Positions 23,439 through 46,292 of a stretch of DNA of 64,000 bases are shown one piece after another. A program made the position numbers and the translations under genes. The stretch lies in contig BDTW01000052.1 of NCBI GenBank assembly GCA_002897735.1, positions 64,634 to 128,633 of the forward strand, written 5' to 3'. The notes beneath the pieces are model-generated. The model did not search any database, was not told the DNA's origin, and saw only the letters and a list, made by a program, of their open reading frames with translations. Every line of letters begins with the position of its first letter. Position 1 is the first letter of the stretch. This stretch comes from a bacterium BMS3Bbin13. GTDB taxonomy: Bacteria > Pseudomonadota > Gammaproteobacteria > 21-64-14.

Positions 23439-24458
23439 ATGGACATGCAGCAGGCGATACGCGCGGTCGTGGAGGGTCGCGACCTGAGCGTGGTGGAGAT
23501 GACCGCGGTGATGGGCGCCATCATGTCGGGCGCCGCGACACCGGCGCAGATCGGCGCGTTCCTCGTGGCGCTGCGGGTCAAGGGCGAGAGCGTCGAGGAG
23601 ATCACCGCGGCGGCCGGGGTCATGCGCTCGCTGGCCACCCGCGTCGAGGTCGACGTCCCCCATCTGGTCGATACCTGCGGGACCGGCGGCGACGCCACGG
23701 GTACCTTCAACATCTCCACCGCCAGCGCCCTGGTCGCGGCCGCCGGCGGGGCGCACGTGGCCAAGCACGGCAACCGTTCCGTCTCCAGCCGCTCGGGGAG
23801 CGCCGACGTGCTGGAGGCGGCCGGAGTCGATCTGGAACTGGACGCCGAGGCCGTGGGGCGGTGTATCCGGGAAGTGGGGGTCGGGTTCCTGTTCGCGCCG
23901 CGCCACCACGGCGCCATGCGCCACGCAGTGGGACCGCGCCGCGAGGTGGGGGTGCGTACGCTGTTCAATTTGCTGGGTCCGCTCACCAACCCGGCCGGTG
24001 CGCCCAACCAGGTGGTGGGGGTGTTCGCGCCCGAGTGGGTGGAGCCGCTCGCCCGCGTCCTGGCGCGGATGGGCAGTCGCCACGTGATGGTGGTGCACGC
24101 GGAGGACGGTCTCGATGAGATCGGCATCGGGGCTCCGACCCGCGTGGCGGAGTTGCGCGACGGGCGCATCGAGACCTATCTTCTGAACCCGGAGCGTCTC
24201 GGAATCACGCCGGCGCCGCTGGACGCCCTGGTGGTGCACGATCGCGACGAGAGCCTGATGCGGATCCGCGAGGTGCTGGAGGACCGACCGGGACCGGCCC
24301 GGGATATCGTGGTGCTCAATGCCGGTGCGGCGCTGTACGTGGCCGGAGTGGCCGGCGGTCTGGAGGCGGGGGTCCGGGAGGCCCGCGCGGCGTTGCGCTC
24401 CGGGCGCGCGGCGGCGGTGCTCGATCGTCTGGTGGCCTTCGGGCGGGCGGCCGGGTAG
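23439..24458 (+). CDS. trpD: Anthranilate phosphoribosyltransferase
   Basis: Second step of tryptophan synthesis: anthranilate plus PRPP to phosphoribosylanthranilate. The 339-residue protein has the PRPP loop [56 protein letters not shown], and [24 protein letters not shown]. It is co-directional with trpG and probably co-transcribed. The usual next gene, trpC, is absent; an IS605-like element follows 140 bases on. Confidence 0.95.
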
Positions 24459-24600
24459 TGCGGGGCGAACCGCGGGGATCTTCGCGATCAGACCTGGAAT
24501 CCGGTCGAAATGTCCAATTTAGGTAGCAAAATCCTCGATCATACAATCAGTTCCCGATCGTGTGCCAAGCAGATTTCCGGGTCCGGCAAGTGAATCCGGT

Positions 24601-24840
24601 GCGCGGCGGACCCCGTCGTTCAGGGCGGGGAAGGAAGGATAGCGCGGGCGGCGCAGCCGTCCTATAATGCCCGTGTTGTCCTGGGCGGCCTACGGCAGGA
24701 CATGCTGGAAGTAACGCCTGTGGAGAGAAGTCGCGGTAAGTCGCTCTGTGAAGCAGGAACTCACCGAAGCGGCTTGGGAGCGGCTCGATACCGTGCCCGG
24801 GTGCCGGGAATCCCCCGGCTTCAGGTGGGGGAGGATGTCG
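24601..24840 (+). mobile_element. IS200/IS605-like element without tnpA or tnpB (copy A)
   Basis: About 240 bases bounded by a left hairpin (CCCCGTCGTTCAGGGCGGGG, 24611-24630) and a right hairpin (CCCCCGGCTTCAGGTGGGGG) that runs into GAGGATGTC. This is the usual look of IS200/IS605 right ends carrying TnpB guide-RNA scaffolds. It shares a left block (ATAGCGCGG.CGGCG.AGCCGTCCT), a middle block (AGCAGGAAC.C.CCGAAGCG) and the right end with copy B at 46051-46292. The flank GGTGCGCGGC is also identical at both sites. No transposase or nuclease gene lies inside. The similarity is seen directly; the family assignment is from memory of such ends. Confidence 0.55.
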
Positions 24841-24860
24841 ACTCCTGAGAGGTGTCCCCT
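24669..24860 (+). ncRNA. Candidate omega-RNA-like transcript in element A
   Basis: A perfect TATAAT at 24663-24668 opens onto a structured stretch with hairpin GTCCTG...CAGGAC, then the conserved AGCAGGAACTCACCGAAGCG and the right-end hairpin GGGGGAGGATGTC. In TnpB systems the guide would be the bases just after this scaffold, here GACTCCTGAGAGGTG. No -35 box stands out. Hypothesis only. Confidence 0.3.
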
Positions 24861-25034
24861 AATAATGCGGAATGAAAAAATATGCCCCACCGTTCGTTAG
24901 GTTATGACTGGCTTCGACCGGCCCCCCCGCGGGAGTGGACGCGGGGGGCGGGTTTGCGCTGGTAGGGCAGGCCTGTGGGAGAGAACCGTGCCGAACCGGT
25001 AACCGAGACCAGAACCGAGAAGGAGGAGCACCAC

Positions 25035-25670
25035 ATGTCTACAACCGCAGAGAACGTGCAGACCGATCAGCTCGTGGAGAAGCTGAATGGCCGGCTCGAC
25101 GAGTTGATCAGCAAGCGCCTCGACGAGATGCTCCCGAAGAAGCTCAAGGAGATCGAGTCGAACAAGACATCGTCCATGACCATCATCGCGACCAAGGGCA
25201 CGCTGGATTGGGCCTATCCCCCGTTCATCCTCGCCTCGACGGCGTCGGCGCTGAGCTGGGACGTGGCGATCTTTTTCACGTTCTACGGCCTGAGCCTGCT
25301 GCTCAAGGACTACAACGAGAACATCAGTCCACTCGGCAACCCGGCCATGCCGATGAAGATGCCGTTCGGGCCCAAGTGGTTCCAGCGTATCAACTGGAAC
25401 ATGCCGAACCTGCTCATGGCCAACGTCCCGGGTTTCGAGAAGATGGCCACCAGCTTGATGAAGAAGACGATCAAGAACTGCGGCGTCGCTTCGGTAACCG
25501 AGCTGCGGGATCTGTGCATCGAGGCGGACGTCAAGATGATCGCCTGCCAGATGACCGTGGAATTGTTCGGCTACGATCGTAAGCAGCTCATCCCGGAGGT
25601 CCAGGAGTACGTCGGTGCGGCGTCGTTCCTGCCCATGGCCCAGGAGGCGGACGTCACGCTGTTCATCTGA
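25035..25670 (+). CDS. DsrE2-like membrane-associated sulfur-carrier protein
   Basis: A 211-residue protein of the DsrE/DsrF/DrsH-like family, DsrE2 branch. In sulfur oxidisers these sit with rhodanese and TusA and pass persulfide sulfur in the cytoplasm. Residues 10-44 are a charged, probably coiled-coil extension (LVEKLNGRLDELISKRLDEML). The core follows: MTIIATKGTLDWAYPPFILASTASALSWDVAIFFTFYGLSLLL, with membrane-like hydrophobic stretches. Conserved cysteines are Cys149 and Cys161 (KNCGVASVTELRDLCIEADVK) and Cys171 (MIACQMTVELFG). AGGAGG precedes the ATG at 25035. No tusA or rhodanese gene is adjacent, so its partner must be elsewhere. Confidence 0.85.
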   Translation: MSTTAENVQTDQLVEKLNGRLDELISKRLDEMLPKKLKEIESNKTSSMTIIATKGTLDWAYPPFILASTASALSWDVAIFFTFYGLSLLLKDYNENISPLGNPAMPMKMPFGPKWFQRINWNMPNLLMANVPGFEKMATSLMKKTIKNCGVASVTELRDLCIEADVKMIACQMTVELFGYDRKQLIPEVQEYVGAASFLPMAQEADVTLFI

Positions 25671-45940: not shown

Positions 45941-46050
45941 TCCGGCCACTCTGCGCGAATCTTGTATGGCATCGTCCATATTATACCAAGCGCCGCCTCG
46001 CCGGGGTGCCGGCCTCGCGGAGGGGTCGACGTGCGCGCCCTTTGACCCGG

Positions 46051-46292
46051 TGCGCGGCAAGCCCCGCCGTTGAGGGCGGGGAAGGATAGCGCGGACGGCG
46101 TAGCCGTCCTGCGCCGTTTCCCGGAGTTTTCTGCTATGGTGAGTGTTTTAAGGGCGGGACACGCCCGGTTCGCCTGTGAAGTGAGCGATGCAGTAGGGTC
46201 GCCAGCAGCAGGAACCCGCCGAAGCGACTCCGTGTGGCTGCCGCACTGAGCGCCGTAGGAATCTCCGGCATTCATGCCGGGGAGGATGTCAA
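46051..46292 (+). mobile_element. IS200/IS605-like element without tnpA or tnpB (copy B)
   Basis: The left hairpin CCCCGCCGTTGAGGGCGGGG (46062-46081) is followed by GAAGGATAGCGCGGACGGCG. The right hairpin CCGGCATTCATGCCGG (46265-46280) runs into GGAGGATGTCAA. The blocks GCAGGAACCCGCCGAAGCG and the left end match copy A at 24601-24840, and the flank GGTGCGCGGC is identical. An extended -10 (TGCTATGGT, 46132-46140) opens onto a hairpin GGGCG...CGCCC and the conserved scaffold. The bases after the right end (AAGACCTTCTGCG) would be the guide if a TnpB acts in trans. No protein gene is inside. Confidence 0.55.

Follow-up and report, generated by a model that had tools for sequence, protein, structure and literature searches.

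Element A, at 24596-24841 in the 64,000-nucleotide stretch analysed here (the window), is very probably an old, decayed internal-deletion derivative of an IS200/IS605 element, a MITE-like element of the PATE type, moved by TnpA in trans and containing an omegaRNA scaffold. A preliminary description, made from the sequence, had placed a tnpB-less IS605-like unit at 24601-24860. The element is real, but its limits had to be shifted, based on the homology with sister copies and on the empty site in G001, the only genome of the same genus that was compared. Element A measures 246 bp and lies on the plus strand between trpD (23439-24458) and a DsrE2-family gene (25035-25670), the product of which has a Pfam match to DrsE_2. 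It begins with CCGGTGCGCGG at 24596 and terminates with GGATGTCGA at 24841. Within these limits no tnpA or tnpB reading frame is present, as described before, and the right-end sequence named in the preliminary description, GGGGGAGGATGTC, is located at 24827-24839. As in PATEs, there is no transposase gene, the shared ends are of the IS605 type with near-terminal palindromes, and there are dispersed copies as well as an empty site. The features of the element and of its sister in the window (element B) are listed in Table 1.

Table 1. Features of elements A and B (positions in the window; R1, covariance model of TnpB-linked scaffolds, see text)
Feature	Position	Strand	Evidence
Element A, tnpA/tnpB-less IS200/IS605-family derivative (PATE)	24596..24841	+	End-to-end homology with nine other copies; missing at the orthologous site in G001
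Left flank GCAAGTGAAT	24586..24595	+	TGAC in intact copies (target/would-be TAM), mutated in A; 9/9 other copies TGAC; G001 TTGAC
Imperfect left-end hairpin CCCCGTCGTTCAGGGCGGGG, decayed	24611..24630	+	Alignment; DNA fold of 24596-24660, z +0.31
TATAAT in left end	24663..24668	+	Common to C35, C42 and C15 copies; no -35 found
OmegaRNA scaffold remnant (tnpB 3' end and right end)	24694..24841	+	24716-24841 matches R1 over all 127 positions, 87.3 bits, E 4.1e-21
Scaffold stem, helix 4	24769..24804	+	Every pair still formable
Right-end hairpin TCCCCCG/TGGGGGA	24811..24832	+	R1 match; GCCGGG/CCCGGC outcompetes it in free folding
Right cleavage site TCGA, not TCAA	24838..24841	+	TCAA in 8/9 other full-length copies and nearly all TnpB-linked relatives
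Putative guide position (if transcribed) CTCCTGAGAGGTGTCCCCTA	24842..24861	+	Aligns with the base 3' of TTGAC in the G001 empty site
Hybrid promoter-like site TCGACT-17-AATAAT	24838..24866	+	Promoter scan; upstream of the DsrE2-family gene; G001 has TTGACC-17-TATAAT there
Element B, sister solo element with intact ends	46047..46292	+	TTGAC at 46042-46046 just before; C42 and C30 copies 99% identical
Element B omegaRNA scaffold	46172..46292	+	R1 127.3 bits, E 1.7e-31; 26/28 canonical pairs in its own minimum-energy fold

Copies of the element in the genome

The search for further copies that the preliminary description had proposed was done with 24580-24880 as a query against the window's own genome (2.69 Mb in 62 contigs). 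It yielded 36 matches at E <= 1e-3, with homology to other copies at E 4.5e-36. Besides A and B, about 30 other places matched an end or the scaffold. The relationship previously proposed with a second unit at 46 kb was borne out; element B is 67% identical to A over the ungapped columns, and both match the model of TnpB scaffolds from end to end. The copy nearest to A is C35, with 79% identity over the element. Ten full-length tnpB-less copies, A included, could be aligned. Together with C13, C1:83-209 and the decayed C2:28459, the genome contains at least 13 tnpB-less copies, when a left end and a scaffold within one contig are required for a copy to be counted.

The sister copies have a common left end, CCGGTGCGCGGCAAGCCCCGCCGTT.AGGGCGGGGAAGGATAGCGCGG, and a common right end, GGAATC-hairpin-GAGGATGTCAA. 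With A set aside, TGAC precedes each of the nine full-length copies, and all but one of them end with TCAA after GATGTC, the exception being C59 (GATGGCAA). A left TGAC and a right TCAA are compatible with cleavage sites of the IS200/IS605 type. Copies B, C42, C30 and C35 have intact ends and an intact fold. The 99% identical relatives of element B are present at other sites (C42:20963 and C30:17456), and its scaffold is also found at C60; such near-identical copies at different sites are a sign of recent mobility without tnpB.

In the full-length families aligned, the retained part of tnpB starts just before the scaffold. In one unit, C47, the tnpB start codon and first codons are fused to the scaffold, which shows that it originated by internal deletion. 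In the eight relatives searched, most R1 matches are located at the 3' end of tnpB or of a tnpB fragment (4 out of 4 in Azotobacter vinelandii). The surplus of solo copies in this genome is thus unusual, in a comparison that is small and with an assembly that hides full copies.

Sources of tnpB and tnpA with the same ends

Whether a full IS605 with matching ends occurs in the genome was a question raised by the preliminary description. Fragments of both genes were found. At C52:138378+, at a contig edge about 10 kb to the right of the window, tnpB begins (MQRLQAFKFELRPDG...) after the shared left end. The 3' end of tnpB at C45 (..CGFEENADVVGAINVLRAGHARFACEVSGAV..) leads directly into the shared right end with a related scaffold. 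The 3' end of a Y1 transposase gene adjoins the shared left end, in the opposite orientation, at C2 and C53. Fragments of a tnpB with similar ends are therefore present in the genome; the lack of such a TnpB had been named as a possible refutation. An intact TnpB cannot be read from this assembly. The tnpB and tnpA fragments lie at contig edges, and full IS copies are broken there, as expected of repeats.

A complete copy is present in a relative, G002 (SZUA-21, contig QILK01000192.1), and consists of the left end, a TnpB of 401 aa and the same right end. This TnpB has three Pfam domains of the TnpB type, and the natural proteins of solved structure that match it best are the TnpB chains 8bf8 and 8h1j. 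The scaffold of A is of the subtype ACGE...KQE...EA, as in copies from G008, Nitrincola and Chitinilyticum. In this genome the tnpB fragments belong to another subtype, FACEVSGAVMPPAAG, and a TnpB of the same subtype as A was not found there. Neither was an autonomous parent with exactly this subtype found among 143 genomes of the class, in which the closest TnpB-linked scaffold of the subtype is a fragment in G008.

An omegaRNA scaffold in element A

Among the best 80 of 360 TnpB relatives in named genomes, the zinc ribbon of tnpB is followed by a conserved block, GCCTGTGAAGTGAG...GCAGGAACCCACCGAAGCGACTC...GAGCGCCGTAGGAATC...GAGGATGTCAA, which is partly coding and terminates at the right end. 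The alignment of 57 of these TnpB-linked blocks, none from this genome, gave a consensus of 29 pairs, 20 of which had pair-keeping changes on both sides, and the covariance model R1 was built from it. R1 matched the window in two places, A and B, each time over the whole model, and the genome in 28 places at E <= 1e-3. Since R1 represents the TnpB-linked right ends of other genomes, its match shows that the inner part of A derives from the omegaRNA scaffold of a TnpB. Upstream of the R1 region, at 24694-24706, A contains GGCAGGACATGCT. Its homologue in TnpB-linked copies is the GGGCGGGACACGCCC hairpin, present in some of them as the A-T variant GGGCAGGACATGCCC. Based on this homology and the R1 match, the scaffold of A runs from about 24694 to 24841.

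Across the tnpB-less copies in this genome, 93.5% of the cells were paired and 8 pairs had changed on both sides, against 3.0 in shuffles and at most 4 in slid structures. None of the 24 pairs in helices 1, 3, 4 and 5 is broken in element A, although it differs from C35 in 9 paired columns; only 0.01% of neutral simulations kept as many pairs. This retention speaks against the reading of A as a decayed derivative insofar as it hints at structural constraint, in an alignment that was fitted to the structure, and the constraint may predate the loss of tnpB.

At the gathering score no Rfam family matched the window. Far below the cut-off, HgcC and sot0042 RNAs matched weakly at 24736-24854 (E 0.41 and 6.8), possibly as a distant echo of archaeal RNAs overlapping TnpB, or by chance.

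Decay of element A

The target tetranucleotide and the right cleavage site of A are mutated; it is preceded by GAAT instead of TGAC and its right tip reads TCGA instead of TCAA. IS200/IS605-style end hairpins had been described for A. Its ends do match those of the copies adjoining tnpB and tnpA, but the palindromes have decayed and fold no better than shuffles: as single-stranded DNA the left and right ends had z-scores of +0.31 and -0.67, versus -3.0 and -3.1 for B. The RNA fold of 24669-24860 is also no better than that of shuffles (z -0.47). The evidence for A consequently lies in homology and covariation, and thermodynamic stability was rejected as evidence.

In the scaffold of A, 26 of the 29 consensus pairs can still form, but none of these 26 canonical pairs occurs in the minimum-energy fold. 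The canonical fold is less favourable than the minimum by 10.3 kcal/mol in A and by 0.8 in B; B folds into the canonical omegaRNA structure and A does not. Of the 29 pairs, 27-29 form in the scaffolds of the B/C/D copies, with fold z-scores of about -1.4 to -4.6. The TATAAT box reported before is indeed present in the left end of A, but it has no recognisable -35 and was not reported by the promoter scan. The guide, which had been placed at GACTCC..., would begin two bases later, at 24842 (CTCCTGAGAGGTGTCC). It matches the genome exactly at its own site only, next to two sites with 2 mismatches, and a second genomic target was therefore rejected. Most likely, A no longer works as a transposon or as a guide.

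Insertion site and promoter of the DsrE2-like gene

G001 contains the same gene pair and lacks element A. To the left of A the flank can be aligned with G001 (none of 500 shuffles was as good), and the right flank, from exactly 24842, aligns to the base after TTGAC in G001 (CTCCTGAGAGGTGTCCCCTAATAATGCGGAA versus CTACTGAGAACGGCACCCT-ATAATGCGAAA; 4 of 1000 shuffles were as good). On this alignment, element A sits 3' of an ancestral TTGAC. For element B no empty site was available in G001, where its flanks are on different contigs that stop short of the insertion.

In G001 this TTGAC opens a well-spaced sigma-70-type promoter, TTGACC-17-TATAAT, and forms the -35 box of the DsrE2-like gene promoter. 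The sole promoter-like site that the promoter scan reported in 24400-25100 (TCGACT-17-AATAAT) consists of the right-end tip of A and the -10 of the host. The insertion may thus have displaced the original -35, with the tip of A taking its place.

Origin and possible guide function

The events that led to element A would be as follows. Its ancestor presumably lost the body of tnpB; what remained were the two ends and the terminal part of tnpB, which doubles as scaffold. The element would then have been placed 3' of a TTGAC by a TnpA (Y1 transposase) supplied in trans. The scaffold of intact sister copies stops precisely at the right end, and read-through transcription would thus yield an omegaRNA with flanking host DNA as its guide. 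By the established TnpB model of ISDra2 (PMC8612924), the predicted target of such a guide is the own empty site (TGAC or TTGAC plus flank), which could be cut by a TnpB supplied in trans. The present effect of A is likely local, namely a split promoter of the DsrE2-like gene with the right-end tip as the -35 of a hybrid promoter. Guiding of TnpB in trans is possible for intact copies and unlikely for A.

That element A consists of chance stem-loops in G + C-rich intergenic DNA, or belongs to an unrelated structured RNA as was considered in the preliminary description, would agree with its stability, which by itself does not exceed that of shuffles. However, this explanation is refuted by the homology to other copies, and the match to TnpB-linked scaffolds, the empty site in G001 and the lack of an Rfam match at the gathering score also speak against it; its probability is negligible. 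The preliminary description had also proposed that A makes an omega-RNA-like guide. The scaffold is indeed of the TnpB type. A functional solo omegaRNA, which serves a TnpB in trans and cuts the empty allele, could be argued from the full-length match, from the conservation of most pairs with compensatory change and from the TnpB fragments with a related scaffold. Nevertheless, it is improbable that A still works in this way, given the large energy gap to a canonical fold of which no pair is realised, the subtype for which no TnpB was found in the genome, the TATAAT without a -35 and the guide without a second full match. The alternative offered in the same description, a MITE-like passenger, fits A better in view of its mutated sites, lost fold and unmatched scaffold subtype.

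For the intact sisters (B, C42, C30, C35, C24 and others) the balance is different. They could be transcribed as solo omegaRNAs and be served in trans by one common TnpB, which would help to retain them after excision; in that case they are kept as guides and not merely as substrates of TnpA. The nearly complete pairing of their scaffolds, the covariation in excess of shuffles and slid controls, the tnpB remainder that starts right before the scaffold and the excess of tnpB-less over the few tnpB-linked copies, unlike in the relatives searched, all point in this direction. However, the covariation may come from tnpB-linked ancestors, the recent copies are too similar to reveal selection, and an intact TnpB is not assembled in the genome; we consider this role possible but doubtful. 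Somewhat more tentative still is the extension that the intact tnpB-less copies form a community of predicted solo omegaRNAs, parasitising the TnpB of a few full copies. A shared TnpA would move each of them, the own guide would direct TnpB to cut the own empty site, and A would be an old member.

Comparison with known elements

The DNA anatomy of A has already been published as PATE, and the type is mostly known. In Haloquadratum walsbyi, PATEs such as HqIRS71 are transposase-free IS605 derivatives, some of which arose through core deletion (PMC3119063). These are archaeal and were published before omegaRNA was known (PMC3119063). A PATE-like element of about 271 nt in Halanaerobium hydrogeniformans consists of the left-end hairpin, the last 58 nt of tnpB and the whole right end, without tnpA, and such elements are described as often mobile in trans (PMC7290912). 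That element occurs as one copy and was not examined as an omegaRNA, in contrast to the many copies, several subfamilies and covariation-tested scaffold in this genome (PMC7290912). As far as the papers searched go, the statement that solo guide-RNA loci are little described is true of TnpB guides; the DNA anatomy, in contrast, is already published (PMC3119063, PMC7290912).

For ISDra2, the guide RNA of TnpB derives from the right end, the TAM equals the insertion target and the donor joint is cleaved (PMC8612924). The TAM/target is TTGAT in ISDra2 versus TTGAC or TGAC here, and ISDra2 carries tnpB inside the element, with activity shown, while A and its sisters are tnpB-less and are known here from their sequence (PMC8612924). 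Full IS200/IS605 elements of proteobacteria, for example those of Gammaproteobacteria SZUA-21, Azotobacter vinelandii and Marinobacter lutaoensis, share the scaffold and the right end, which follow a TnpB of about 400 aa. Such full proteobacterial elements carry tnpB and the scaffolds are mostly tnpB-linked, whereas the group of A is tnpB-less. No solo or trans guides of TnpB were found in the literature searched. Stand-alone IscB omegaRNAs were reportedly described in the OMEGA work of 2021; these guide-RNA loci are said to lack a nuclease gene likewise, but serve IscB and not TnpB.

New here is the covariance evidence for a full TnpB scaffold in such elements, in several subfamilies and many copies within one genome. 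Non-autonomous IS605 elements that keep the scaffold offer a direct test of TnpB serving guides in trans, and with its tnpB-less copies outnumbering the few tnpB-linked ones this genome is well suited to such a test. Element A, a fossil of the process, is also a possible case of the right-end tip of an insertion joining a host promoter.

Reduced remnants

Several places in the genome contain smaller derivatives. At C1 (L185 83-230) a separate deletion joined the left-end hairpin to the first hairpin of the scaffold; a G-rich motif common to both apparently served as the junction. Right-end-only or heavily reduced remnants are present at C16:14448, C1:29226 and C3:1259 (L204, L206 and L207), and consist of the end hairpin plus either GGATGTCAA or GGAAGTCAA, the remainder of the scaffold being largely or wholly missing. 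At C15:19684 (L006 1501-1640) a lone left end with TATAAT is located directly upstream of a short lysine-rich ORF (MAKPNYQYEKRQKELAKKRKKEEKQQ...), and may act as its promoter.
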